A DNA stretch of 64,000 nucleotides from Methanoplanus endosymbiosus (GTDB lineage Archaea; Halobacteriota; Methanomicrobia; Methanomicrobiales; Methanomicrobiaceae). Position numbers and translations under genes: made by a program. The notes below the pieces were generated by a model. That model worked only from the letters and a program-made list of their open reading frames with translations, was not told the origin of the DNA and did no database searches. Below are positions 1 through 16,326 of this stretch, in pieces (the stretch's first letter is position 1; the number at the start of each line of letters is the position of its first letter). The stretch covers positions 434,001 through 498,000 of the forward strand of contig NZ_CP096115.1 of the NCBI RefSeq assembly GCF_024662215.1, given 5' to 3'.

Positions 1-2632
1 TACAGCTCTGGACAATGTTGAGTGCCATCTTTAAAATATTGTACAACTCCTTCTGTGCTTTTTCAGATAATCCGACACCACCCATGTAATTGTCAAATAT
101 TATGACTGTCGCCTCGTTTTTCGGTCCGTATTTATCATATACAGCACACCTTATATCATTGTGATCACAGAGGACAAAATGCGGAATCACAACAGAGAGT
201 ATATTTTCAACGCCTTTTAACCCTTTGAGGATCTCAGATGTTTTCAGGTCCGGTCCTGATTTATCTATAGCCTCTTTTGGGATTGTAAACCACAGCCCTT
301 TTGTTTCTATTGATACCGGAGGAAGATTCAGGCAATACTCAGATATCTTTCCTTTGTAGTCATGTTCTGAGTATTTTGTATATCTCTCCTGCACTATCAT
401 CTGGCTGAAGTTTATCTCAAGTTTTCCCACCGGAATTTTATTTAAAATCCGGCCAGTTTTAACAGTTATATCAGATTCAGCAATGGTATGATTTTCGGTA
501 TTCTCTTCTGTGACATATACACTGTGAGTTTTTAAGTCAAGTTTAGAAACACGATATCTGCCATCACCATGAAGTATAATTGCACCTTCATGCCCTTCAC
601 GATATACCTGCTCTTTAGATAATGTCTCTATTACTTTATTCCGGCTGATAACTTTGAATGTTTCACCGGATGTCCCGTTTCTGATCTGAACATCGCCCTG
701 AATATGCTTTTTTTCAACAGGATACCACTTATTTTTGTCTTTTTTAATCAGGTGTTTATAAAATGCCGATGCTGCTGCTTTCTCTAATTTTTCATCTATA
801 TCACAGTTAAATATGCTGTTATGCTCTGCTGAAAGCTCCCCGTTTTCCATCAGTGCACAGATGAGGTGGTCAGTCAGGATATATTTGTTTGAGGTATCTA
901 TCGTTGCATGTTCACTTGGTTTATTAAAGAATTCATCCGGATTGTTGATTATAAATTTCTCAAGCGGGTTGTTAAATCCCATAAATATAACGAGTGAAGA
1001 ACTGTACTTTCTTCCTGCACGCCCTGCCTGCTGCCAGGTGGACATTATTGAACCCGGATAGCCTGAGATAATTACACAGTCAAGAGAGCCTATATCTATC
1101 CCAAGTTCAAGTGCATTTGTTGAAGAAATCCCCATTGTTTTCCCGGATTTTATCCCGGCTTCGATCTCTGCTCTTTCACCTGAGCGGTACCCTGACCGGT
1201 AGGATACAATTTTGCAGGGTTTTGTGGAGTTATATGTACTCTCTTCCCTGACGATCTTCTTTGCCGCATCTGCAATAAGTTCTGTGGACCTTCTGGTCTT
1301 TGCAAAGCAGAGCGTCTGAATACCGGAAGATGAAAGATATGCAAGCAGTTCAGCGGTCTGTTTTACCTGTGACGGTTTATCTGCCTGATAGAATATGAAT
1401 GTCTTTTCGTTTGTCTTTGAACCGTTTTTATCAACAAGGACAAATTTCTCTCCTGTCAGGTTTTCTGCATGCTCTACAGGGTTTGCAATGGTTGCGGATG
1501 AGAGAATAAAATTTGGATCAGAGTTATATCTTCCTGCAATAAGTTTCAGCCTTCTTGTAAGAAGAGCAATATGTGAACCAAATACACCCCTGTATGTATG
1601 TGCCTCATCCATCACCACGTAACTTAGGTTTGAGAAGAGAAACGACCACTGTTTATGATTGTGCAATATTCCTATATGCAGCATATCAGGATTTGTTATT
1701 AATATTGAGGGTTTATTCTGCCGGATTCTCTTTCTTTCATCAGGTTTTGTGTCCCCGTCATATTTTTCAACCTTTATTGCCGGATCTATCTTTCCAACCA
1801 TCTCACGTATTGATTTTAACTGGTCGGATATCAGAGCCTTTGTCGGATAGATCAGCAATGCCCTTGATTTTGGGTTATTGATTATTGAGTTGATTATCGG
1901 AACCATGAATGCAAGTGATTTTCCGCTTGCAGTTGGTGTTGTGATGATTACGTTTCTGCCATTAATGGCATGTTCAATCGTCTCAGTCTGGTGACTATAT
2001 AGCTGAATGCCTTCATTTCTAAGGAATTCATAGATTTTATAAACACAGTGGTGTGGATTTTCAAATACAGCAGGTTTTTCTTCAATAATCTTCTCTTCAA
2101 CAATTCCGGCTTTAAACATGGAATTTGCCTTTAAGGATTTTATCAGTCCGGGGATATCTCCGCTGAAATCTATTACCTCATATCTCCTGGAATTTTTTAT
2201 TTTTCCTTCAGACTTCCGGGCATTTTCTTTTAATTTCCGGACTTTATTTTCCTTTTCAATTATAAGGGTCTGCTCTTTGTTCTTCTTAATTACCTCTTCA
2301 AGGTCAATTTTGCCATGTATTTTACTCTCATTCTCAATGACAGAAGAGAAATTTTCCAATGGTACTCTGTAAATAACATCTTTTATATGAATTTCAAGCT
2401 CTCTTTTGCCACTGCCGGATTTATCTCCGGTTATACTAAGATATCCGGGTTTTTTTGAACCTTTCCAGACATCTGCCCTCTCTGTTTTTCCGGATAAGAG
2501 ATCCTCAGCAAAAGCGGGAACAATCATATATTCTATATTATTGATGTAAAAAAGAATGACAGGATTGCCGGTTCTTCTTTTGAAATTAAATTCCAGGTTT
2601 ATATCTTTAAAATTGTCAGTGATTATTCTCAT
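1..2632 (-). CDS. DEAD/DEAH-box helicase of the YprA/MrfA/Hrq1 (DUF1998) family, 3' end cut by window edge
   Basis: A continuous minus-strand reading frame starts at ATG 2632 (preceded by GGAG) and runs off the left edge, so about 877 residues are visible. The middle has a helicase core: a Walker-A-like TPTASGKS, then DEAHTYRG followed by VFGSH, a combination typical of the YprA/MrfA/Hrq1 group. The last visible part contains FDNYMGGVGLSE and a Cys, matching the DUF1998 region that normally leads into a four-cysteine metal site. Known members translocate 3'-5' on DNA and act in repair (MrfA in mitomycin repair) or, as DrmA/DrmB-type proteins, in defence. The N-terminal ~200 residues are lysine-rich and unrecognised. 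It overlaps the preceding 61-codon ORF by 17 nt, suggesting co-transcription with the upstream kinase. Family call is good; the pathway is inference. Confidence 0.85.
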   Translation of the reverse strand, partial: MRIITDNFKDINLEFNFKRRTGNPVILFYINNIEYMIVPAFAEDLLSGKTERADVWKGSKKPGYLSITGDKSGSGKRELEIHIKDVIYRVPLENFSSVIENESKIHGKIDLEEVIKKNKEQTLIIEKENKVRKLKENARKSEGKIKNSRRYEVIDFSGDIPGLIKSLKANSMFKAGIVEEKIIEEKPAVFENPHHCVYKIYEFLRNEGIQLYSHQTETIEHAINGRNVIITTPTASGKSLAFMVPIINSIINNPKSRALLIYPTKALISDQLKSIREMVGKIDPAIKVEKYDGDTKPDERKRIRQNKPSILITNPDMLHIGILHNHKQWSFLFSNLSYVVMDEAHTYRGVFGSHIALLTRRLKLIAGRYNSDPNFILSSATIANPVEHAENLTGEKFVLVDKNGSKTNEKTFIFYQADKPSQVKQTAELLAYLSSSGIQTLCFAKTRRSTELIADAAKKIVREESTYNSTKPCKIVSYRSGYRSGERAEIEAGIKSGKTMGISSTNALELGIDIGSLDCVIISGYPGSIMSTWQQAGRAGRKYSSSLVIFMGFNNPLEKFIINNPDEFFNKPSEHATIDTSNKYILTDHLICALMENGELSAEHNSIFNCDIDEKLEKAAASAFYKHLIKKDKNKWYPVEKKHIQGDVQIRNGTSGETFKVISRNKVIETLSKEQVYREGHEGAIILHGDGRYRVSKLDLKTHSVYVTEENTENHTIAESDITVKTGRILNKIPVGKLEINFSQMIVQERYTKYSEHDYKGKISEYCLNLPPVSIETKGLWFTIPKEAIDKSGPDLKTSEILKGLKGVENILSVVIPHFVLCDHNDIRCAVYDKYGPKNEATVIIFDNYMGGVGLSEKAQKELYNILKMALNIVQSC

Positions 2633-2801
2633 CTCCTGTATTGAAAATTATAGTATCTTTTTTCTGAAGTGTGGAAATATGTATGGCTGAAAAGTCAAAT
2701 ACAGCTATGTACTCACAGATTTCGTTTGTACCTGCACCGGCAGGAGATATATTATTCTCTGTCAGAACTGCTTTTCTCTCTTCCTGCTCTGTACACATCA
2801 T
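2616..2801 (-). CDS. small 61-aa protein of unknown function
   Basis: Its ATG overlaps the stop of the upstream kinase gene as ATGA (2798-2801), and its own end overlaps the helicase start, an arrangement typical of translational coupling. The product is acidic, has no membrane segment and no motif I recognise. The tight overlap on both sides is the main reason to regard it as real; it could also be a chance frame in the junction. Confidence 0.45.
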   Translation of the reverse strand: MMCTEQEERKAVLTENNISPAGAGTNEICEYIAVFDFSAIHISTLQKKDTIIFNTGDENNH

Positions 2802-4558
2802 TTGAATGAATATACCAGACGTGGGATTTTAATTTCAAAACATGCCCCTTCTCCATAGGTTCCACTTTCCATGATTGATATTCCTGTTATTGATAATATC
2901 TCCTTTGATAAAAATAATCCCAGTCCGGTATTTTTGCCATATCCTCTCTGAAATATTTTCATCTTCTCTTCATCCGGAATGCCGGTGCCATTATCTCTGC
3001 ACAATATTATTAATTCATCAGACTTTTCGGTTGCAGTAAAATTAATCTCAGTGATTGTACCCCCATATGATACTGCATTCTGGATGAGATTATAAAATAC
3101 TTTCTCAACCATCCGGTCTGCAAAAATCCTGAGTCCACTTAAATCTGAATGTACTGCAATCTTTCCCATAGATAATGATAAAGAGGATTTTCTTATTAAC
3201 TCATCAGCATCCTGCCATACGGGTTTTTCAACCCCTATATCCTGATAGTCTTTAGAGAAGGAGATCTGGTCCTGTATTGAATCTGAGGCTTTTTTCATAA
3301 TCCTGAAATATTTCAGGTTTTTCTCATCCGGAGCATCTTCTATTAAAATTTCGAGATAGCCCTGTAAAGCTGTCAGATTATTCAGTATGTCATGCCTGGT
3401 TATGCTGTTTAAGAGGTTAAGTTTTTTATTTGATTCAATCAGGCTTTTTTCTGAGATCTTCCGGCTGGTTATATTGGAGGAGATCACAGTCACTGCAATG
3501 ACTTTATCAGTCTCAGGATCTTTTACCGGGCAGAATCTTCTGGAAAAATGGTTTTCACAGCAGCTGTACTCATCAAGGAAATAATCACCGTCAGAGAATA
3601 CTTTTGTTATAATTTCTGCAAAGGATTCACTTTTTCCTTCCGGATGAAACTCCGCATATCTCTTTCCAGAGTATATATATTCAGGTTTCAGCCCAAGCCT
3701 CTCCTGATGTGCCTGGTTTATAGATAAATACCGGCATTCTCTGTCAACTACATATACTGATTTGTCCTCTTCCTCAGTACCTGTATCATTCTCTTCAGTA
3801 TTACCTGTACCTTCTCTGCCGGACGGACCCCTTCTTTTGGATACAATATTTACTGCAACCACACTGTCATCTTCAATATTACTGACCGGAGTAAAGGTTC
3901 TGTTTAACCTGAATCTGTCACAGTTGTACTCTTCCCGGAAAATTTTTCCGGTTTCAAAAACATTGCTGATGATCTCAGAAAATTTTCTGTATTCAGATTC
4001 GGCATGGAAGTCCTGATATCTCCTTCCTCTGTACAGTTCACTTGATTTCCCAAGACGCATGAGATGCTTTCTATTCATGTAGAGGTAACGGCAGTCGGAG
4101 TCAACCATGTAAATTGAATCATCCATTGACTCTAACAGAGACCGGTATTTTGCATCTTTTAATGATTTAATATTTCTCTCCTCGTAAAGTTCTGAATATT
4201 TACTGAGAAATAAGTTTAATTTTCTCAGTTCCTCTTCCGTGTTATCCTCATTAATCAGGTGGATATTCAGCCCATGACTTACACATTCACTGATAAATTC
4301 CGGTTTAAAACTGGAGATTAATACTATATGCGGGATTGGCTTTAGTTCTTTTTTTATTCCCCTTAATAAATTATGAACATTAAGATCGCTTTTTCTGCTG
4401 TTAATTATAATTATATCCGGATTATTGCTCTTTATCTCTTTCAGGGCTTCCTGAATCTCTGTAATTGTTTTTAACCTGAAGGGATAATTCCTGTCAGTAA
4501 CAATTTCTTCAATATCAACTACAGGCGGTTTATCATCTATGATAAGTATTGAAATCAA
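2798..4558 (-). CDS. pseudo-receiver/PAS/PAS histidine kinase
   Basis: A 586-aa cytoplasmic sensor kinase with no membrane segments. Residues 1-120 form a receiver-like domain: the acidic pair IIDD is present, but the phospho-acceptor strand reads IIIINSRKSD, so the usual Asp is replaced by Asn/Ser. Two PAS domains follow (about 130-245 and 262-375), each with a YMVDSDCRYL/YVVDRECRYL core. The dimerisation helix carries the archaeal H-box SITRHDILNNL, and the C-terminal HATPase has an N-box (YNLIQNAVSYGG), G1 (DNGTGIPDEEK) and a GLGLFLSKEIL G2-type motif. The kinase half therefore looks active while the receiver probably cannot be phosphorylated in the normal way. No partner response regulator is adjacent. 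It is followed by a 61-aa ORF and a helicase, which suggests but does not prove a regulatory link. Confidence 0.85.
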   Translation of the reverse strand: MISILIIDDKPPVVDIEEIVTDRNYPFRLKTITEIQEALKEIKSNNPDIIIINSRKSDLNVHNLLRGIKKELKPIPHIVLISSFKPEFISECVSHGLNIHLINEDNTEEELRKLNLFLSKYSELYEERNIKSLKDAKYRSLLESMDDSIYMVDSDCRYLYMNRKHLMRLGKSSELYRGRRYQDFHAESEYRKFSEIISNVFETGKIFREEYNCDRFRLNRTFTPVSNIEDDSVVAVNIVSKRRGPSGREGTGNTEENDTGTEEEDKSVYVVDRECRYLSINQAHQERLGLKPEYIYSGKRYAEFHPEGKSESFAEIITKVFSDGDYFLDEYSCCENHFSRRFCPVKDPETDKVIAVTVISSNITSRKISEKSLIESNKKLNLLNSITRHDILNNLTALQGYLEILIEDAPDEKNLKYFRIMKKASDSIQDQISFSKDYQDIGVEKPVWQDADELIRKSSLSLSMGKIAVHSDLSGLRIFADRMVEKVFYNLIQNAVSYGGTITEINFTATEKSDELIILCRDNGTGIPDEEKMKIFQRGYGKNTGLGLFLSKEILSITGISIMESGTYGEGACFEIKIPRLVYSFK

Positions 4559-4787: not shown

Positions 4788-7700
4788 TCATCTTCTGAGC
4801 ATCATATCAGCAAGACTTTCTCCGGCAGAGACAATCTCGTCCGGAAGAATAGGGATTTTATTGTCAACCCTTAATTTTATCCGGTCATATAACCTCTTCG
4901 CCTTTATTTCTGCCTCACCTTCAGTATATCTTCTCAGTTCTGAGAGGGCTTTCAGTGAGGAAGGAGGGCTGGCACTGTGCAGTTCATTTAATAATGCATC
5001 ACATGCAGAAATTATCTGACTATAATTATCAGATTCTGGATTATTGTTCCTGTCATCAACAGCACTGCCGGTTCCGGATTTTACTGGTGAATATTTCATA
5101 TCTGTCCGGTCCGCATAGTTTTTGCTTTTAGTCTCATTATCCATTGTGCAATGTTTGCCGGCTTTTTCATAACTACTGCCATATTTTCCGTCATTATCAA
5201 TGCCATAAAACCGCGGATGGTCAATCTCTCCTTCCTTCCATCTGCATATGGATTTATAATCACATCTCCTGCATATCTCCCCCGGATTTGGGCAGAACTC
5301 CTGGCTGCCAATCTTTTGGATATAATCAACAGCCATATCTTTTGCATTGGTGAGGCTTTCATCACTGACATCGACATCTCTGAGTATGCAGTCTTTAATA
5401 TAGGCTACAGAGCCGGCATTCACTTTTTCACCTGCACTATTAAATCCAAGCGAATATAACTGAACCTGAAAGGCAACTTCCTCATCTGTGGCAACTGTAT
5501 CTGATGTTTTGTAGTCCCTGACCTCAATTCCCTCGCCGTCTTTGAGTATGATGTCTGCCCTTCCGGAGATCGTTGTACCGTTGGCAGGAAATTCCACCTT
5601 AGATTCAACATTTTTAATGACCCTCATATCCTGTTCATTTTCACTTGCAAACCGTGCAAGCTGTTTTTTTGCAGAAGATTTAATTTTATTAAGCTTCTCT
5701 TCGTTTACAAAAGGCATTGTAAATCGTGAATCAACCGAGTGTACAACGGCGTTAACCGGATGGCTGCCGTTTTTGATCTCTTCCGCAGCTTCGTAGAGGC
5801 AGTGATGAAGGGCATTACCATAGCCAATCATATCTGCAATCCCTGACTGATATCCCAGAACAGATCTGAGCCTGAACATATAGGGGCATCTTCTGTAATT
5901 TACAAGTTCCCCGACAGTATAGATGAGATTTTCATCATTCTCCTGAACTGATAATATTTCAATGTCGGGCAGGTTCTCCCTGTCGTTTATGAATGGAAAT
6001 GCCCCTGTTTTAAGTGCATCTTTTATAAATAGTCCGGGTTCTTTGCTTTTATTGTTATAGTAAGCATAATAGCTGAGGACCAGAAGATCCTTTGCTCTTG
6101 TTGAGGCAACGTAATGGAGTTTTCTCTCCGATTCCATGCTTCCTTCATATCTTTCGGCATCATAAAGTCCGGAGGGAATTAACTTCTCCTTTATACCTCC
6201 TTTCTTTGTTGATGGAAATATTCCCTGATTCATTGAAGGGACGAACACAACCGGCCATTCAAGTCCTTTTGCCTGATGTATTGTCACAATCTGAACGGCT
6301 TCGGCAGATTTTACATCATCGGAAGTCTGAACGCCGTAACTGTCAGCGGCATAGGCATTGATATATTCAGTCAGCCATGAGAGTATGTTCTCAACCGGAT
6401 ATCGTGAGCCGCCCATGCGGTTTGCCGATTCAAAATCGTTTAAAAGTTCTGAAAACCGGCCAAGGTTTGCAATTATTGTGTATTCATCCGGATTTTCGGG
6501 GTTAAGGGATTTATATCCCAGAATTTCAAGCAGAGTATAATAAATATCAATGAGATTCGGAAAACCTCCGGATAATACTACTTTTTTTAATGCACGGATT
6601 TTACTCTCATAATTTTCAGAAAATATCTCTCCGGCAGCCCCTTTCCAGTCCGAAATTCCGGAGAATAAAAGGTCATCGCCATTGATGAAATAATCCCGTT
6701 TTTTCTTCTTATAGTACCCGTCATTATCAAACCAGATTATAATTTTGGCAATGCCCTCTACCTCAGGACTGTTAAAAAGGTTTACATTGCCTGCAATTAT
6801 CGCCGGAATTTCCTCTTCCCTGAATGTTTTGATAATTAATGGTGCAGATATTTTGACAGACCTTAAAATGACTGCAAAATCCCTGTACCTGCACTTACCA
6901 CAGTCCACATATCTTTTTATCTGCTTTGCAATCCATTTTGCCTCTGAAAGATCAGTATTGTTCTCAATAATTAATACTCCTGATTCCGACTCACGTACCG
7001 GAATCAGATCATCATAATTTTTAACAGATTTCTTTGCAATGCTGTTTGAGAAATCTATGATCTCTCTTCCACTGCGGCGGTTATTACTGAGGGACAATGA
7101 CTGCGCATCCTTCCCGAAATTCTCAAAGCATTTATCATCTGAACCTCTCCACTGGTAAATTGTCTGCCTTGGATCCCCCACCACAAAGAGATTTGCCAAA
7201 AATCCAATCAGTTTAATTAGTTTCTCCTGTGCATGGTTTATATCCTGGTACTCATCAACTATAAGATGCCTTATATTTCTGATGATTTCAGGTTTTTCCA
7301 TTATATGGCTGACAGCAAGATCAACCATTCTGTTATAGGAGAGTAACCTGAACTTTGTCATCTCGTTTTCATAGGATTTTACCCATTCTGAAAATTCAGG
7401 TGCTTCTCTTTCAAGTTTTGAGGGGTCAATAAGTTCAGAATAATAGATATTAAGTGAATTGAGGAATTTATTGCATTCACCCGCATAATTACCTCTGTCA
7501 GTCTTTAGAAATTTCCAGCCTGTCCGGAGAAGAAATGCCATCTCTTTATGTTCATCAAGTTCAGTGTAATTCCTGTAACCACAGTTCTGCTGAAGAAGTT
7601 TGAGGCAGAATCCGTGAATTGTGCCGACGTACATCTCTCCCAGTCTGGCACAGGCTTCTTCTCCGGCAAGGTTTTCAATCTGTTCGTAGATTCTGCCCTT

Positions 7701-8879
7701 CATACTGCGGGCAGCTTTTTTTGTATATGTAAATGCTACAATGGATGAAGGCGGGACTTTCTGTACCAAAAGAAGGTGAAGTATCTTCCTTGTAATTACT
7801 TCTGTCTTGCCTGTGCCGGCTCCGGCAATAACCCTCACTTTTCTGCTGTCAGACAAAACTGCCTTTTTCTGGTCATCAGAAAGCGGGTTTGGCCTCTCTG
7901 TAATATCTTCTGATGTAAATCCTTCAGCAACCGGAGGTTCGCCTGAGTTGTCCTCCGGAATTCTGAATGACGGGAGGAAATTATTCTTTGGAATTATTCT
8001 TTCAGGATTCTTCTCTTCAGGCATTTTATTCCGGATGGATTCTAATCCTGTATCTGATGATGGTGAATTTTCTTTTGGTGTTATAGGTATTATACCGGAT
8101 ATTTGTCCATATTCTTCCGGTATGGATATTGTGTCAGTTGTTGGTTCATCATCTGGTGATATGGATATTATACCAGATGCCAAAGGATCGTCCGGGTAAA
8201 AAACACCCGTAAAATCCGTATTTTCATCGTTAGATCCCCCATTTATGTTAGTAGGTATTTGTCCGTCAGGAACTGTTTTTTTACGGACATCAAAATCATA
8301 TTCATCAAGATAAAGTTCTTTTACGATGACCTCAAGTTCCTCATCGAGAAGTTCATATCCGGTATTGTTATAACAGAGCCTTTCAGCAAGAGAGTCAGCA
8401 GTGACAACCGCAAACCAGGGAAATTCCCACTTGTCGATCTGCCCGTCAGGGTAAGTGCTCCCCTTTCTGAAATATCCCCACGCTGCAATTCTTCCTGCTT
8501 CTTTCTGATCAATATATCCAAAATGTTTCTCCCTGATCTTCTGATACTGCCGGTTAAATTCCCCCCTCTGGGTTATTAACTGGTCAAAAAGATTTCTGTG
8601 GAGCTCAGTCTCCTCTCCGGAATTTGTGACAACTTTCCAGGGTTTCTGTGGATAATCGTCACCATAAACAGTTCCACAGTAGTTTTTTAGATCAAGAATT
8701 ACAGGCCCGTTCACAGTCAGGATTATGCAGTCAATCTCAGTTTTTGCAAGTTTTATATTTGTTAAAAGAAATACATTTTCGTCCTTAAACTCTCCTTCAA
8801 GAACCCCTGCAACTTCTTTTATCTGTTCAAGCTCATGAAAATACTCCCCTCTTCTCCCCCTGAAATATCTGACCGGCAT
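4788..8879 (-). CDS. NERD domain - UvrD/PcrA helicase - RecB/AddB-like Fe-S nuclease fusion
   Basis: A protein of about 1363 aa. Residues 1-120 resemble a NERD nuclease-related domain (RGRRGEYFHEL, TEIDCIILTVNGPVILDLKN). A low-complexity Asp/Ser/Pro/Ile-rich linker lies at about 205-335. SF1 helicase motifs follow: AGAGTGKT (Walker A, ~357), VDEYQDINHAQ, GDPRQTIYQWRGSD and TIHQAKGLEWPVVFVPS. The C-terminal third has a PD-(D/E)xK nuclease (GRADIILKDG then EVRDYKT), with one Cys in YRRCPYMF and a CxxCx5C set near the end, as in AddB/Cas4 iron-sulfur nucleases. This suggests DNA end processing in repair or defence. I choose ATG 8879 over GTG 8891 because a TATA-like ATATATAA lies at 8896-8903, about 20 bp upstream, fitting a leaderless transcript. 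A stem-loop lies upstream at 9012-9030. Confidence 0.88.
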   Translation of the reverse strand: MPVRYFRGRRGEYFHELEQIKEVAGVLEGEFKDENVFLLTNIKLAKTEIDCIILTVNGPVILDLKNYCGTVYGDDYPQKPWKVVTNSGEETELHRNLFDQLITQRGEFNRQYQKIREKHFGYIDQKEAGRIAAWGYFRKGSTYPDGQIDKWEFPWFAVVTADSLAERLCYNNTGYELLDEELEVIVKELYLDEYDFDVRKKTVPDGQIPTNINGGSNDENTDFTGVFYPDDPLASGIISISPDDEPTTDTISIPEEYGQISGIIPITPKENSPSSDTGLESIRNKMPEEKNPERIIPKNNFLPSFRIPEDNSGEPPVAEGFTSEDITERPNPLSDDQKKAVLSDSRKVRVIAGAGTGKTEVITRKILHLLLVQKVPPSSIVAFTYTKKAARSMKGRIYEQIENLAGEEACARLGEMYVGTIHGFCLKLLQQNCGYRNYTELDEHKEMAFLLRTGWKFLKTDRGNYAGECNKFLNSLNIYYSELIDPSKLEREAPEFSEWVKSYENEMTKFRLLSYNRMVDLAVSHIMEKPEIIRNIRHLIVDEYQDINHAQEKLIKLIGFLANLFVVGDPRQTIYQWRGSDDKCFENFGKDAQSLSLSNNRRSGREIIDFSNSIAKKSVKNYDDLIPVRESESGVLIIENNTDLSEAKWIAKQIKRYVDCGKCRYRDFAVILRSVKISAPLIIKTFREEEIPAIIAGNVNLFNSPEVEGIAKIIIWFDNDGYYKKKKRDYFINGDDLLFSGISDWKGAAGEIFSENYESKIRALKKVVLSGGFPNLIDIYYTLLEILGYKSLNPENPDEYTIIANLGRFSELLNDFESANRMGGSRYPVENILSWLTEYINAYAADSYGVQTSDDVKSAEAVQIVTIHQAKGLEWPVVFVPSMNQGIFPSTKKGGIKEKLIPSGLYDAERYEGSMESERKLHYVASTRAKDLLVLSYYAYYNNKSKEPGLFIKDALKTGAFPFINDRENLPDIEILSVQENDENLIYTVGELVNYRRCPYMFRLRSVLGYQSGIADMIGYGNALHHCLYEAAEEIKNGSHPVNAVVHSVDSRFTMPFVNEEKLNKIKSSAKKQLARFASENEQDMRVIKNVESKVEFPANGTTISGRADIILKDGEGIEVRDYKTSDTVATDEEVAFQVQLYSLGFNSAGEKVNAGSVAYIKDCILRDVDVSDESLTNAKDMAVDYIQKIGSQEFCPNPGEICRRCDYKSICRWKEGEIDHPRFYGIDNDGKYGSSYEKAGKHCTMDNETKSKNYADRTDMKYSPVKSGTGSAVDDRNNNPESDNYSQIISACDALLNELHSASPPSSLKALSELRRYTEGEAEIKAKRLYDRIKLRVDNKIPILPDEIVSAGESLADMMLRR

Positions 8880-8895
8880 TTTAAATCCCACAAAT

Positions 8896-9392: not shown

Positions 9393-9977
9393 TTATGGCC
9401 GGAAATTATCGTGCATTCTTTCAGGAACTGCATTTTTTGGATCTAAATCACCATTTCTGACTGATTTTATATTTTTGAGGATATGCTCAAGACCCCCATC
9501 TATCTCATCATCTCTAATATCCGCAGATTCAGATGTTATACTGATAATTTCGCCAATAATGCCATTGTGATCCTTATCCCTCAGATTCATTCTGGAGAGC
9601 CACGATTCCAGTCTTTCCGGATTTGCCCCTGAAAGACTGTTCCAGATGCCGGCATTTTTGAGATCGTTTTCATGCTCTTTTAAGACAATCAGGTTTGAAA
9701 GTGCCCTGTATTCATTTTCAAGGCTTATCTGTGAACTGAGTTTGATCTCTCTTCTGTATATCAGCGATTCAATCCGTCTGGCAATACTGACCTCTTCACT
9801 CTCTGTCTCTGAATTTCCTGCTTCTTTGTATAATTCTTTGATGCGATCCTCAATCAGGAAAATCTCGTAACCGAGTTCATCAGATTTTTTTGAGAGGTGA
9901 ACATCACGGATTTTTAAGACATTGAGCGGAAGCTCGTAGAGTTCTTTATTTTTGCCTTTAAACTGGAAAATTCTCAT
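9393..9977 (-). CDS. helical protein, possible ESCRT-III/PspA-like fold, function unknown
   Basis: A 194-aa charged, almost wholly alpha-helical protein. A short beta-like start (MRIFQFKGKNKELYELP) precedes long amphipathic helices (about 30-115), then a stretch with an AGIWNSLSG turn and RLESWLSRMNL, and an acidic tail (DDEIDGGLEHILKNI, about 155-170). The order of basic N-terminal helices, a long hairpin and an acidic C-terminal helix is reminiscent of Snf7/CdvB or PspA-type membrane-remodelling proteins, but this is judged by eye only. It follows the 106-aa gene after 15 nt and is surely its operon partner; the pair is divergent from the 180/528-aa pair. It could simply be a coiled-coil adaptor. 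Confidence 0.6.
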   Translation of the reverse strand: MRIFQFKGKNKELYELPLNVLKIRDVHLSKKSDELGYEIFLIEDRIKELYKEAGNSETESEEVSIARRIESLIYRREIKLSSQISLENEYRALSNLIVLKEHENDLKNAGIWNSLSGANPERLESWLSRMNLRDKDHNGIIGEIISITSESADIRDDEIDGGLEHILKNIKSVRNGDLDPKNAVPERMHDNFRP

Positions 9978-9992
9978 TATTCATAACTCCTG

Positions 9993-10313
9993 TCAGTTAT
10001 CTTCATCAAAACTTTTTTCAGGATTTTTTTCAACTGAAAGGAGATATTCTGCATCCCCGGTATTGATTGATCCCGATTCAACACCGCTCCATGCCTCAAT
10101 AAGCTGTTTTTCAGTCTCACCGAGATCTCCATCTGATTCAGCGACATCCATAAAGAGGATCTGGTTTAAATCATCAATAATTCCCTCAAATCCTTTGGCT
10201 GAGAGATTTATCCGTTTTTTAAGTTTAAGCTCCTCTCCCCTCAGATCCCCTGATATTAGTCTGTTCCCCGGATTTTTATGCGGTGTTGTAAGGATATTCA
10301 GTTCAATCACCAT
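9993..10313 (-). CDS. 106-aa protein of unknown function
   Basis: First gene of a two-gene minus-strand unit (15-nt gap to the helical 194-aa protein). The N-terminus is beta-like (MVIELNILTTP), followed by a basic stretch (ELKLKKRINLSAKGFEGIIDDLNQIL) and an acidic tail. No signal, membrane span or catalytic motif is seen. The start faces a shared AT-rich promoter region (10314-10434) with the plus-strand pair, suggesting joint control of all four genes. I do not recognise the family. Confidence 0.6.
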   Translation of the reverse strand: MVIELNILTTPHKNPGNRLISGDLRGEELKLKKRINLSAKGFEGIIDDLNQILFMDVAESDGDLGETEKQLIEAWSGVESGSINTGDAEYLLSVEKNPEKSFDEDN

Positions 10314-10403
10314 TCATAATGTTGTTTTTACAACATAATAAATATTTCTCCAATTCGGATGTTTAATATTATTCGCTCTGAAACCACATCCCATATGGAG
10401 ACA

Positions 10404-10411
10404 ATTATATA
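10404..10411 (+). promoter_or_regulatory. TATA-like box deciding the start of the 172-aa gene
   Basis: TTATATAT lies about 27 bp before ATG 10435. A start at ATG 10411 would sit inside this box, so the downstream ATG with a leaderless transcript is the better choice. The 121-bp region between the divergent gene pairs also contains a second AT-rich stretch suited to the minus-strand promoter. Confidence 0.5.
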
Positions 10412-10434
10412 TGTCCACCCGCCAAATAAATAAT

Positions 10435-10953
10435 ATGGATTATATTGTGTTCGTGGATTACTTCTCCGATGCCGAACGCAAACGAATTGATTATACAATT
10501 GAGAGATGGCGTGATAAAGCAGATATTGCCCGGGAAAAAGGAATAGTTATACGGTTTAAAGATAAGAATATTGACTCATTTCTGGATGACTTATACTCAA
10601 GGCTTGATGCCGGAAAGGAGCAGGTCCAGGTATTTGAAGCAAACACCCATAAGCCTGAGATTAAAGCCCGTGAAGAAGTGCTTAGATACCACTCATCTGC
10701 CGGCAGGGATGTAATTGAAAAATTTCTGGGCTACATAATGGCCAAGATAAATGCCCAGTATGAATTCAGAGATAATGGATTTGTCCGGTATGCTGCCTCC
10801 ACAAAGAAAGGGCAGGCAAAGATAGAGATATCAATAACAGATAATAAGGCAGGCTCTGAAACCATAATAAAAATATCAGGATATGCCAGTTCTGCAAAAT
10901 TTCTACATGACAGAATTGATGAAGAGATGAAAACTTTTCTTGGAGGCTTTTAG
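10435..10953 (+). CDS. 172-aa protein of unknown function
   Basis: First gene of the plus-strand pair; its stop codon is immediately followed by the ATG of the 528-aa gene, so the two are co-translated. The start at MDYIVFVDYF is chosen because the alternative upstream ATG (10411) lies in the TATA-like box. The sequence suggests a mixed alpha/beta fold: a hydrophobic first strand, a helical stretch with a DDLYSRLDAGKE segment, and a C-terminal part with alternating strands (AKIEISITDNK, ETIIKISGYA) and a final helix. No known catalytic signature is visible. The context with two helical/coiled-coil partners suggests a complex, but the function is unknown. Confidence 0.6.
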   Translation: MDYIVFVDYFSDAERKRIDYTIERWRDKADIAREKGIVIRFKDKNIDSFLDDLYSRLDAGKEQVQVFEANTHKPEIKAREEVLRYHSSAGRDVIEKFLGYIMAKINAQYEFRDNGFVRYAASTKKGQAKIEISITDNKAGSETIIKISGYASSAKFLHDRIDEEMKTFLGGF

Positions 10954-12540
10954 ATGAGCAGTGAAGATCCGGCATGCATAACCAAACTGGCAAAGCCATC
11001 AAAACAGGTGCTCAATGAGGGCCTTTTCATCCGCCATGAGCCGCCTGAAAAGAGGATTTTACTCTGGAATCGTATAAAGATTAACAGGGAGATGTTTGTT
11101 GACGGGGAATGCGGAAATATACTGGATGACCTCGATATTCATTTCAGAGGTATATTTGATGCTTCACTTCTCTGCCTCTCTTCCACATTTAAAGATGAAG
11201 GATCTGAAGCTCTAACTGATATTTTTTCCGGAGCTGAGTACAGAGCCTATGAACATTTTGAGAGGATGAGAATAATTGAGATCTATTCCTCTGAAGATTT
11301 AAAGAAGAAGATCATCAAAAAAGATAATGATGTAATGGAAATTCTGAGAAATTACTATCTCTTTGGTGATTCACGATTTGATGAAATCCTGGATTCTGCT
11401 GAAATAAGACCTTCTCTGAGATATTTTTTCCATAAGAGATGGGATGAAATTAAAAAGAAGATAAATGAGGCAGCTTCGGTTTTAATCATGGATTCTGATT
11501 ATCTTGTAAAACTGATCAGGATATGGGAAGATGAAGGGAGAAGAATTGCCAGTGTTTCAGGCGAGAACGAGAGAAAAAAGATTTTTGATGACCTCAGATG
11601 CCGGGAGGATAAACTCTCCGGGGAGCTAACGGGAAAAGATGAGGAGATATCCCGCTGCAGAGAGGAAATTGAAGGTTTAAAAGAGAGATTAAACTGGGCT
11701 GTACCGGATAAAAACCAAAGAGAGGAATATGCTGAAAATCCCGGCAGATATGTGACTTCCGGAGAAGCCAGACAGTATGAAATTAATCTCCTGAACAGAT
11801 TTGGCCTTAAATTTTCTGACTTTGTATCATCAGTTGAAAAGAAATACAGAGTCTGTGGGATCCGTGAGGATAAGGTTAATCCACCGGAGTACTTTAAGGA
11901 GAGATTTGATCTCTCTTCAGATGATTATCTGAATATTCCAAGGAACAGTTCATTAAAGATTGATCTTATTGAGAAGAAGATCTTTGGCAGGAAAGAAAAA
12001 GTCCGGATTTATGTTGCTTTTATCTCAAGGCAGGCTGAATATGCAAGGTATTCCTGTGACTGCCTGCCGGCAGGGCTAAAAGACTTAAATATTATTATGG
12101 ATAATGTCAGGTCTGACTGTACTGGCAATAAAATCCATGCCTTCCTCTTTGCCGCTTCACCGACCGGTTTTGATGATAAATGCAGATCAGTCATATCCGG
12201 AAATGAGAGTGCTCCAAACAATTCCTGCGGAAGTATATCCGTCTGCCTTTATGACCCTGAAACAGGATGTATTTCATATAACTCCGGAGATCCATTCTCC
12301 CGCACATTTTCAAAACTCTGCAATCCCGAACTTCCGGAAGAGAAGAAATTAAGGCTGAAAGATGAGGTTGACAGAAAAATATCTGAGGAGATTGCAGCTT
12401 TTGGCTGGTGCTCTCTTGAATCCTCCTTTGACAAAAAAAGGGACGACATTCTTCTGATAAAGCAGCTATTTTATCGTTTTGCTGAAGAGAAAGGCTACTG
12501 TGTTAAATATGTAAAAGATTCCGGACTTGTTATGATGTGA
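10954..12540 (+). CDS. 528-aa coiled-coil-containing protein of unknown function
   Basis: Follows the 172-aa gene with no gap. The N-terminal ~190 residues are mostly helical; a heptad-like coiled coil lies at about 195-250 (KKIFDDLRCREDKLSGELTG onward); the C-terminal half is alpha/beta (about 265-480) with a strand-rich stretch (KVRIYVAFISRQAEYARYSC, GNKIHAFLFAASPTGFDD) that looks like a Rossmann-type or nuclease-like core, but without a motif I can assign. Ten or so cysteines are scattered and do not form an obvious zinc site. The end converges on cheW 32 bp away. With its partner and the divergent pair it forms a four-gene cassette of unknown role. Confidence 0.65.
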   Translation: MSSEDPACITKLAKPSKQVLNEGLFIRHEPPEKRILLWNRIKINREMFVDGECGNILDDLDIHFRGIFDASLLCLSSTFKDEGSEALTDIFSGAEYRAYEHFERMRIIEIYSSEDLKKKIIKKDNDVMEILRNYYLFGDSRFDEILDSAEIRPSLRYFFHKRWDEIKKKINEAASVLIMDSDYLVKLIRIWEDEGRRIASVSGENERKKIFDDLRCREDKLSGELTGKDEEISRCREEIEGLKERLNWAVPDKNQREEYAENPGRYVTSGEARQYEINLLNRFGLKFSDFVSSVEKKYRVCGIREDKVNPPEYFKERFDLSSDDYLNIPRNSSLKIDLIEKKIFGRKEKVRIYVAFISRQAEYARYSCDCLPAGLKDLNIIMDNVRSDCTGNKIHAFLFAASPTGFDDKCRSVISGNESAPNNSCGSISVCLYDPETGCISYNSGDPFSRTFSKLCNPELPEEKKLRLKDEVDRKISEEIAAFGWCSLESSFDKKRDDILLIKQLFYRFAEEKGYCVKYVKDSGLVMM

Positions 12541-12572
12541 TGGGCATATGAACGCAGATCAGCCAAAAAAAA

Positions 12573-13107: not shown

Positions 13108-16100
13108 TTATACCTTAAAGACTTCAACTGATTTTTTAAGGTCTTCTGCCATTCCTGCCACTTCGTCAGCTCCGCTTCCGACCTCTTCAGATGAAGCGGA
13201 GACTTCCTCAGTCAGTGCTGCAATATCCTCTATTCTCTTCATGTTTTTGTGGGTAACCTGTGTGGTCTTTTCCATTGTCTGCATTACACGGTTGGTGGCA
13301 TCTGCCTGATCTTCGGTGGCTTTTGCTATTTCATTTATTGCCCTTCCGGCATTGTCAGCACCGATTACCATACTGTTTAAGGCAATAATTGTTTCATTCA
13401 CGCTTTCAATGCCTGACTGAATTTCATTATATGCAGATTTCATTGATTCAGCAGTCTTAGAGCTGTCTTTCTGAATTCCAATTATGAGTTTTTCAATGTT
13501 GTCCGTAGCCTTCTTTGAATCTCCTGCCAGGTTTTTGACCTCTCCGGCAACTACTGCGAATCCGCGCCCGTGTTCTCCGGCCCTTGCAGCTTCAATCGCG
13601 GCATTTAATGCAAGGAGATTTGTCTGGTTTGAGATATCTGTTATGAGTTTTATTATATTGCTAATCTCAACCATCTTCTCATTGAGTGCGTCAATTTCTT
13701 TCACACTTAATAAAGAGATCTTCTCTACTTCCTGCATCTTGTTATTTGCAATATTTCCAAGGTTTTTAGCTTCCTGACCAAGTGACGTAACCTCCTCGGC
13801 AGAGCCTTTGACTTCCTGAGATGTACTTGCAATCTCTTCAATTGAAGCTGACAGATCTGATATTTCCCTTGCAGCATCTTCTATATATTCTATCTGCCTT
13901 CTTGAATCCTCTGAAGTCTGCTGGGTATTGACTGCAACCTGCTCTATGGCTCTGGTTACTTCATCTATACCCTTGGTGGTATCAAGAATACTTATGCCAA
14001 CTCTGTTTGCAATATCTATTACTTTTTTAACCGGCTCCACTATTGCGTCAAGCGTCTCATTTACTCCTCTTACAATTTCTGCAAAGTCTCCTGCATGGCG
14101 CGATACATCAGCTCTTATAGTAATTTTTCCTTCTGATGCCGCTTTTGTAAGCATACCTGTGTCTTCCACCAGAAGGTTTACGGCATCAATGCAGAGATTG
14201 AGGTTGTTCTTGATCTCGTTGAAGTCGCCGTTGTAGTTGTCAGTAATCCTCTCCGGAATGTCACCCCTGCTTATTCTCTCCACGTATTCGGCTGAGACAT
14301 TCAGCGGCCCGACAACTGCGTCAAGCGTCTCATTTACGCCCCTGATTATGGCCGCAAAATCTCCGGCATGCCTGGAAACATCAGCTCTTGTATCAAGCCT
14401 TCCCTGCACTCCGGCCTCTGCGAGCATATTGGTATCTTCCACCAGAAGGTTTACAGCATCAATGCAGAGATTGAGATTGTTCTTGATCTCGTTGAAGTCG
14501 CCGTTGTAGTTGTCAGTAATCCTCTCCGGAATGTCACCCCTGCTTATTCTCTCCACGTATTCGGCTGAGACATTCAGCGGCCCGACAACTGCGTCAAGCG
14601 TCTCATTTACGCCCCTGATTATGGCCGCAAAATCTCCGGCATGCCTGGAAACATCAGCTCTTGTATCAAGCCTTCCCTGCACTCCGGCCTCTGCGAGCAT
14701 ATTGGTATCTTCCACCAGAAGGTTTACAGCATCAATGCAGAGATTGAGATTGTTCTTGATCTCGTTGAAGTCGCCGTTGTAGTTGTCAGTAATCCTCTCA
14801 GGAATGTCACCCCTGCTTATTCTCTCCACGTATTCGGCTGAGACATTCAGCGGCCCGACAACTGCGTCAAGTGTGTTATTGACACCCCTGATTATGGCCG
14901 CAAAATCTCCGGCATGCCTGGAAACATCAGCTCTTGTATCAAGCCTGCCCTGAACTCCGGCTTCTGCCAGCGTATTGGTATCTTCCACCAGGAGGTTTAC
15001 GGCATCAATGCAGAGATTGAGGTTGTTCTTGATCTCGTTGAAGTCGCCGTTGTAGTTGTCAGTAATCCTCTCAGGAATGTCACCCCTGCTTATTCTCTCC
15101 ACGTATTCGGCTGAGACATTCAGCGGCCCGACAACTGCGTCAAGTGTGTTATTGACACCCCGGATTATGGCCGCAAAATCTCCGGCATGCCTGGAAACAT
15201 CAGCTCTTGTATCAAGCCTTCCCTGCACTCCGGCCTCTGCGATCATATTGGTATCTTCCACCAGGAGGTTTACGGCATCAATACAGAGATTGAGATTGTT
15301 CTTGATCTCGTTGAAGTCGCCGTTGTAGTTGTCAGTAATCCTCTCAGGAATGTCACCCCTGCTTATTCTCTCCACGTATTCGGCTGAGACATTCAGCGGC
15401 CCGACAACTGCGTCAAGCGTCTCATTTACGCCCCTGATTATGGCCGCAAAATCTCCGGCATGCCTGGAAACATCAGCTCTTGTATCAAGCCTTCCCTGCA
15501 CTCCGGCCTCTGCGAGCATATTGGTATCTTCCACCAGGAGGTTTACGGCATCAATGCAGAGATTGAGGTTGTTCTTGATCTCGTTGAAGTCGCCGTTGTA
15601 GTTGTCAGTAATCCTCTCCGGAATATCACCCCTGCTTATTCTCTCCACGTATTCGGCTGAGACATTCAGCGGCCCGACAACTGCGTCAAGCGTCTCATTT
15701 ACGCCCCTGATTATGGCCGCAAAATCCCCTGCATGCCTGGAAACATCAGCTCTTGTATCAAGCCTTCCCTGCACTCCGGCCTCTGCGAGCATATTGGTGT
15801 CCTCCACCAGAAGGTTTACAGCATCAATGCAGAGATTGAGATTGTTCTTGATCTCGTTGAAGTCGCCGTTGTAGTTGTCAGTAATCCTCTCAGGAATATC
15901 ACCCCTGCTTATTCTCTCCACGTATTCGGCTGAGACATTCAGCGGCCCGACAACTGCGTCAAGTGTATTATTAACTTTGGAGATGATTGAACCCCATCCT
16001 CCGGGGAATTCATCAGAGTTCCCTCTGGTATCGAGTTTGCCATCAATTGCTGATTTTGTTATCAGATTCAGTTCATTCAATACATTATTTATAATCGCTC

Positions 16101-16326
16101 CGGTTTCATTGATGTTATTCTTTAATATTTCAGTATTTCCGGAGTATTCTTCAGTGATGTCTTCTATATTCTCTCCTTTAGAGAGAGCAAGGATAAAATT
16201 TCTGGCAAGTCTGAGCTGCGTCTTTAAATCTGCATTCTCCTTTATGTAATCATCCTTTGACATATCCGAATTATACTCCATGAATTCGGAATCAGATCCT
16301 GATGGATCCGCTTTGTTAACTCCCAT
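13108..16326 (-). CDS. soluble methyl-accepting chemotaxis protein with tandem poly-HAMP array
   Basis: A 1072-aa chemoreceptor lacking any transmembrane segment. After a short N-terminal helix, residues ~40-129 hold a divergent HAMP pair, and residues 130-766 hold seven 91-residue units, each reading as two HAMP-like modules (first: [15 protein letters not shown]...; second: [22 protein letters not shown]...). Six units are almost identical; the seventh, next to the signalling domain, has diverged in its second half ([15 protein letters not shown]). The C-terminal ~300 residues form the coiled-coil hairpin with the canonical tip [19 protein letters not shown]. Poly-HAMP receptors are known in archaea; here the array takes the place of a sensor domain. 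It is in an operon with cheW. The second CheR-like and CheB-CheR genes in the window could modify it. Confidence 0.95.
14029..15939 (-). repeat. seven tandem 273-bp coding repeats (poly-HAMP units)
   Basis: Within the receptor gene the sequence repeats every 273 bp (91 codons) seven times. Units 1-6 differ at only a few positions each, mostly synonymous or Met/Ile/Thr swaps in the TNxLAEAG stretch and NE/NN in GVNxTLDAVV; unit 7 differs more. The antisense strand shows the same 273-bp periodicity of open frames, which is a by-product. Confidence 0.95.

Follow-up and report, generated by a model that had tools for sequence, protein, structure and literature searches.

A probable reduced descendant of the euryarchaeal Main-clade ESCRT locus in Methanoplanus endosymbiosus

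Introduction

Makarova et al. (2024, mBio; PMC10936438, preprint PMC11188069) described a euryarchaeal Main clade of endosomal sorting complex required for transport (ESCRT) systems, found in Methanomicrobiales among others, in which every locus encodes Vps4, ESCRT-III, arCOG08177 and arCOG09748. In that description arCOG08177 joins an inactivated Cas2-like N-terminus to a TBP/helix-grip domain, and arCOG09748 consists of a helical N-terminus, a coiled coil, a globular domain that has no recognised relatives and a C-terminal winged helix (PMC10936438). Most euryarchaea are described there as dividing with FtsZ, a statement that is not specific to the genome studied here. We analysed four divergently transcribed genes in a 64,000-nucleotide stretch of Methanoplanus endosymbiosus (hereafter the window; assembly GCF_024662215.1, contig NZ_CP096115.1, positions 434,001 to 498,000), whose genome is a single contig of 3.16 Mb. 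A preliminary description of the window had presented these genes as an undescribed multi-gene system, possibly linked to DNA repair or defence. Our comparisons indicate that they are very probably a reduced copy descended from a euryarchaeal Main-clade ESCRT locus.

Results

Four conserved genes and two losses

The four genes are the following.
9393..9977, minus strand: P0001, 194 amino acids (aa), full length, ESCRT-III-like, the second (type II) paralogue, homologous to the pair of ~200-aa proteins in every closely related locus
9993..10313, minus strand: P0002, 106 aa, ESCRT-III-like, the type I paralogue, from whose coiled-coil core 97 internal codons are deleted
10435..10953, plus strand: P0003, 172 aa, arCOG08177-like
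10954..12540, plus strand: P0004, 528 aa, arCOG09748-like

Counterparts of P0001, P0002, P0003 and P0004 in a genome of the same genus (G001, the sister species) are 80, 75, 87 and 82% identical, with gene order and orientation kept, and the pairwise ratio of nonsynonymous to synonymous substitution rates (dN/dS) between the two genomes is 0.12-0.19 for the four genes and similar for the flanking genes. Because the sister species keeps proteins 75-87% identical in the same arrangement and at such ratios, the four open reading frames (ORFs) are, on these comparisons, genuine genes and not chance ORFs, and the pairwise dN/dS suggests that the surviving genes are still under purifying selection. 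The four ORFs and the 121-bp gap between the two pairs were confirmed as first described, as was the lack of any recognised family: none of the four proteins had a significant match in Pfam, NCBIfam or PADLOC. An alternative start of P0003 at the in-frame ATG at 10411 (180 aa) was rejected, as it overlaps a TATA-like box; the start seen in the family is the ATG at 10435.

The sister-species locus (L006) has a minus-strand pair of 194 and 203 aa, a plus-strand pair of 180 (172 from the family start) and 528 aa, and a 399-aa AAA+ ATPase gene directly after the 528-aa gene. Set against it, the window shows two losses, neither of which had been recognised in the preliminary description.
10206..10207, no strand: deletion junction in P0002, where 291 bp of the sister species are lacking in the DNA alignment
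12541..12572, no strand: site of the lost Vps4-like AAA+ gene, 32 bp here and 1259 bp with the 399-aa Vps4-like gene in the sister species

The intact counterpart of P0002 is the 203-aa gene at L006:9901-10512, and alignment shows P0002 to be this protein minus 97 central codons (291 bp), with the frame kept and short near-repeats (TTWAYCCG) flanking the deletion. No Vps4 ATPase (AAA plus Vps4_C, MIT) is encoded between 12540 and 12573 of the window, and the 399-aa ATPase of the sister species matches Vps4_C at E 3.8e-6, above the cut-off. As the window locus lacks Vps4, it is a derivative and not a complete member of the Main clade. An ESCRT-III-like gene split into two adjoining ORFs of 100 and 97 aa was also seen in a Thermococcus metagenome-assembled genome (MAG; L086 2898-3491).

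Co-occurrence with a Vps4-type ATPase and the proposed ESCRT-III assignment

A scan of named genomes with 25 aligned P0003 sequences, the whole family alignment, returned 61 loci. Homologues of the ~200-aa pair, of P0004 and of the AAA+ protein adjoin P0003 in Methanomicrobiales, Methanosarcina, Thermococcus and Archaeoglobales, and P0004 together with weaker AAA+ matches stands beside P0003 in haloarchaea. Among the 39 non-duplicate loci with at least 2.5 kb on each side, P0004 was present in 30, ESCRT-III-like genes in 21 and the AAA+ gene in 20, counts that are conditional on selection through P0003. The gene-neighbourhood comparison proposed in the preliminary description thus found homologues of all four genes together across Euryarchaeota. 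The AAA+ proteins have an AAA domain followed by Vps4_C; among six proteins examined, the match exceeded the Pfam curated cut-off in four, one of them from the sister species. ESCRT-type genes were also encountered on contigs from MAGs that bear the labels Oscillospiraceae, Bacilli, Dehalococcoidia and Nitrosotalea (L075, L076, L096, L097, L113). The AAA+ protein of L075 is identical to that of L063, likely a binning error, and the two Dehalococcoidia contigs could reflect transfer or contamination.

The ~200-aa proteins may be counterparts of ESCRT-III, an assignment that we infer from weak sequence similarity and genomic context. A comparison with single CdvB sequences was too weak and was replaced by a profile of 38 crenarchaeal CdvB proteins. 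The type II group profile was collinear with it over 164 columns (P 0.0028) and both ~200-aa types together aligned over 68 columns (P 0.0017), as against P 0.036-0.08 for the controls, which were reversed profiles and CdvA. Snf7 matches were found in 3 of 40 members of the ~200-aa family (best E 2.3e-4), and a CdvB chain ranked third in a profile search of the PDB (E 0.014). This profile evidence is supportive, short of conclusive.

P0003 and P0004 resemble the two companion families

In its AlphaFold2 (AF2) model (mean confidence, pLDDT, 90.9), the C-terminal half of P0003 (residues 76-172) adopts a helix-grip/TBP/KA1-like fold, with structural matches to KA1, MoaD-related and START-type helix-grip folds at Z 9-11, in agreement with the published description of arCOG08177 (PMC10936438). 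The model of P0004 (pLDDT 83) shows a helical N-terminus (1-200), a coiled coil (204-249), an alpha/beta domain (265-460) and a winged helix (461-528), and this domain order and the C-terminal winged helix, for which residues 464-528 gave moderate structural matches (Z about 6-7), agree with the description of arCOG09748 (PMC10936438). The N-terminal helical domain of P0004 also occurs alone, fused to a zinc ribbon and not to the coiled coil and winged helix, at L007 9210-10118, L008 5291-6208 and L009 8560-9615, and is therefore a separable module.

Foldseek returned nothing for P0004 at E<0.001. In a second comparison (VIA), the only one in which this group surfaced, residues 267-461 aligned with the RPB5 N-domain, EndoMS, AF1548, EcoT38I, N.BspD6I and MspJI (Z 5.7-7.0), all of which have the restriction-endonuclease (REase) fold; nearly all the alpha/beta matches were of REase type, acetyl-CoA carboxylase being the sole exception. 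The resemblance of the central domain to an REase-type fold is suggestive and is one of structure only, with Z scores of 5.7-7.0 that are not clear by themselves. No nuclease family appeared among the Pfam or PDB profile matches of this domain, and a catalytic (E/Q)xK motif was not evident in the P0004 family alignment (25 sequences). Homology to Mrr, prompted by an ASPTGF motif and the strand order, was rejected, as hhalign against 29 Mrr_cat sequences scored no higher than reversed controls. If real, the REase-type domain is probably an inactive scaffold; if confirmed in an ESCRT adaptor, it would be a second nuclease-derived fold beside the reported Cas2-like domain. This resemblance and the promoter motif described below both add to what the literature consulted describes.

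A second ESCRT locus in the same genome

The host genome carries a second locus, itself intact, elsewhere on its contig.
G000:C1:1476000-1494000: second locus (L009), in which a pair of ESCRT-III-like genes diverges from a P0003 homologue and an AAA+ gene

Its further genes encode a predicted membrane protein and then coiled-coil, bactofilin-like and zinc-ribbon proteins. L009 resembles the window locus in the ESCRT-III-like gene pair divergent from a P0003 homologue and in having the same promoter palindromes, but differs in retaining Vps4, in encoding the coiled-coil, bactofilin-like and zinc-ribbon proteins, and in that P0004 is represented only by its N-terminal domain, joined to a zinc ribbon. 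The host genome has a single full-length relative of the 203-aa protein, located at 1477 kb (61% identity), and its protein closest to the sister-species AAA+ is encoded at L009 (51% identity). In the ATPase tree, the sister-species and L009 ATPases fall into different subgroups within the methanogen part. The bactofilin-like, zinc-ribbon protein at L009 7050-8435 contains near-identical VISDSIINRSTI repeats, and loci of related genomes also carry SPFH/Band-7 (L007, L008) and TPR-HEAT proteins.

A conserved palindrome in the promoters of ESCRT loci

The two operons of the window are served by a common intergenic region.
10314..10434, no strand: divergent promoter region common to both operons, 121 bp
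10349..10359, no strand: palindromic box 1, TCCAATTCGGA; the TATA-like box of the minus-strand (ESCRT-III) operon lies 6 nt away
10389..10399, no strand: palindromic box 2, TCCCATATGGA; the TATA-like box of the plus-strand operon lies 6 nt away

When the divergent promoters of five loci were aligned, each contained two TCCN5GGA palindromes. To avoid testing just the motif first spotted by eye, we ranked all 448 three-base palindromes in 63 upstream regions of homologues (at most 220 bp each). TCCN5GGA came first, with 57 sites in 41 regions compared with 3.0 in dinucleotide shuffles, although the upstream regions are related by descent and the site count therefore overstates their independence. 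It occurred at every one of the 26 loci whose P0003 is most similar, the core set (the window, L006-L009 and L061-L083, minus duplicates), and at 15 of the 37 others.

A TATA-like box, oriented towards the gene served, starts 6-8 nt from the palindrome in most loci and invariably 6 nt from it in Thermococcus; at divergent loci the outer box goes with the ESCRT-III operon and the inner box with the P0003 operon. Across the host genome, the palindrome and a TATA-like box at that spacing were found together four times, twice at the two ESCRT promoters and twice inside coding regions. The bare TCCN5GGA pattern occurs genome-wide at the chance level, and it is therefore position and conservation that carry the argument for the motif.

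On balance, though with little to spare, we favour the reading that TCCN5GGA, placed 6-8 nt outside each TATA-like box, is an operator, conserved from Thermococcus to Methanosarcina, for a so far undescribed regulator that acts mainly on ESCRT genes. An unlikely candidate for this regulator is the winged-helix half of P0004, because the genomes G011 and G032 retain the motif and only the N-terminal part of P0004 was found in them. CdrS, whose paper presents a symmetric motif, was also considered and is neither supported nor excluded. No archaeal paper describing TCCN5GGA was found in the limited literature searched, and the motif, conserved at many archaeal ESCRT loci, may be what is new here. 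The motif also offers a direct handle, as the protein binding it would tell when cells switch ESCRT on.

Discussion

Homology and conserved gene order place the four genes with the Main-clade ESCRT loci, and several points weigh against this identification. By sequence alone the ESCRT-III assignment is weak, with hhalign probabilities of 11-15%; the identification of P0003 and P0004 with arCOG08177 and arCOG09748 rests on context and on how the domains are described in the literature; a Cas2-like N-terminus did not emerge in P0003, whose structural matches span residues 76-172 only; and the dN/dS values, being pairwise, are blind to recent relaxation on the window branch and to the dates of the losses.

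Established ESCRT biology suggests how such a locus might work. In intact loci, the two ESCRT-III-like coiled-coil proteins would polymerise on a membrane, P0003 (Cas2/TBP-fold) and P0004 (helical/coiled-coil/winged-helix) would act as recruitment or adaptor subunits, and remodelling and recycling of the polymer would fall to the Vps4 ATPase, leading to vesicle budding or membrane-protein sorting. We propose budding or sorting as the outcome because organisms with these complex systems reportedly also have FtsZ-based division (PMC10936438). In the window, the Vps4 gene and what would be the polymerising core of one ESCRT-III paralogue have been lost; the adaptor genes appear to be under constraint, as does the other ESCRT-III gene. 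Since the ATPase is absent and one ESCRT-III core is gone, the remaining proteins most likely need the second locus, or decay. The surviving proteins might thus draw on the Vps4 and ESCRT-III encoded at this genome's second, complete locus, and we offer such complementation in trans tentatively, as quite possible.

Decay would mean that after both losses the remaining genes are non-functional and drifting; that one locus bears two independent lesions, and that the genome has another locus that is complete, would fit this. We nevertheless consider a dying locus unlikely, as all remaining frames are open, P0001, P0003 and P0004 have dN/dS ratios of 0.12-0.19, like their intact neighbours, and both promoter palindromes are retained. 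The pairwise constraint favours dependence on the second locus over decay. That the deletion in P0002 is in frame, with both the N- and C-terminal ends kept, and that its remaining 106 codons are 75% identical to those of the sister species (dN/dS 0.19) would instead suit a repurposed, Vps4-independent module in which the 106-aa fragment joins P0001, P0003 and P0004 in a regulatory or capping role; yet the deleted form is known from a single genome and one deletion in three is in frame by chance, and we regard this alternative as rather improbable.

The genes downstream on the minus strand, which the preliminary description had placed in families often used in repair or defence islands, are the following.
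4788-8891, minus strand: fusion of NERD, UvrD helicase and PD-(D/E)XK/Cas4-like nuclease, 1367 aa, at the same place in the sister species
2798-4558, minus strand: PAS histidine kinase with a sub-threshold receiver domain
2-2632, minus strand: open-ended helicase ORF, YprA/MrfA-like by the call of the preliminary description only

The fusion protein and the kinase are as originally reported, and in the sister species a different gene replaces the helicase of the window's left end. We found no sign of a functional link between the ESCRT genes and these neighbours: an anti-phage or DNA-repair cassette tied to the NERD-UvrD nuclease, which adjoins the four genes in two species of one genus, is extremely improbable and was rejected, as PADLOC gave no match to the four proteins, tblastn with NERD-UvrD against 64 other ESCRT loci (766 kb) returned a single 67-aa match in the helicase core and no counterpart, so that this gene is not co-inherited, and the recurrent partner of the four genes is a Vps4-type ATPase. 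On the other side, positions 13108-16326 encode a 1072-aa protein of the MCP type that has nine HAMP_2 repeats (Pfam E 6.7e-238) and whose gene adjoins a CheW gene; the repeats yield a ladder of spurious 90-aa antisense ORFs.

What had looked like a potential new defence system is thereby placed with a known archaeal machinery of membrane remodelling related to eukaryotic ESCRT, and the cassette offers a natural case of a locus that has lost its ATPase and one polymer core in a genome that still has a second locus. Of the earlier proposal, a co-inherited system with a divergent promoter stands, and the word "undescribed" does not, since the system matches the Main-clade ESCRT loci (PMC10936438); a clear match of all four genes to a described system, which the preliminary description had itself named as telling against its proposal, is largely what we found.

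Among known systems, the crenarchaeal Cdv system (CdvA-CdvB-CdvC) shares the logic of ESCRT-III with Vps4 and a distant CdvB similarity, but no CdvA was seen here. The Meth_adaptin ESCRT clade (PMC10936438) resembles the relatives' loci L007 and L008 in their SPFH and zinc-ribbon proteins, and differs in that a P0003 homologue is present here and that no adaptin-appendage protein turned up, none having been searched for. The Main clade (PMC10936438) differs from the window locus, which is without a Vps4 gene and has one ESCRT-III gene minus 97 core codons, but shares with it the ESCRT-III-like pair and the arCOG08177-like and arCOG09748-like proteins, with Vps4 co-occurring in relatives of the window locus.

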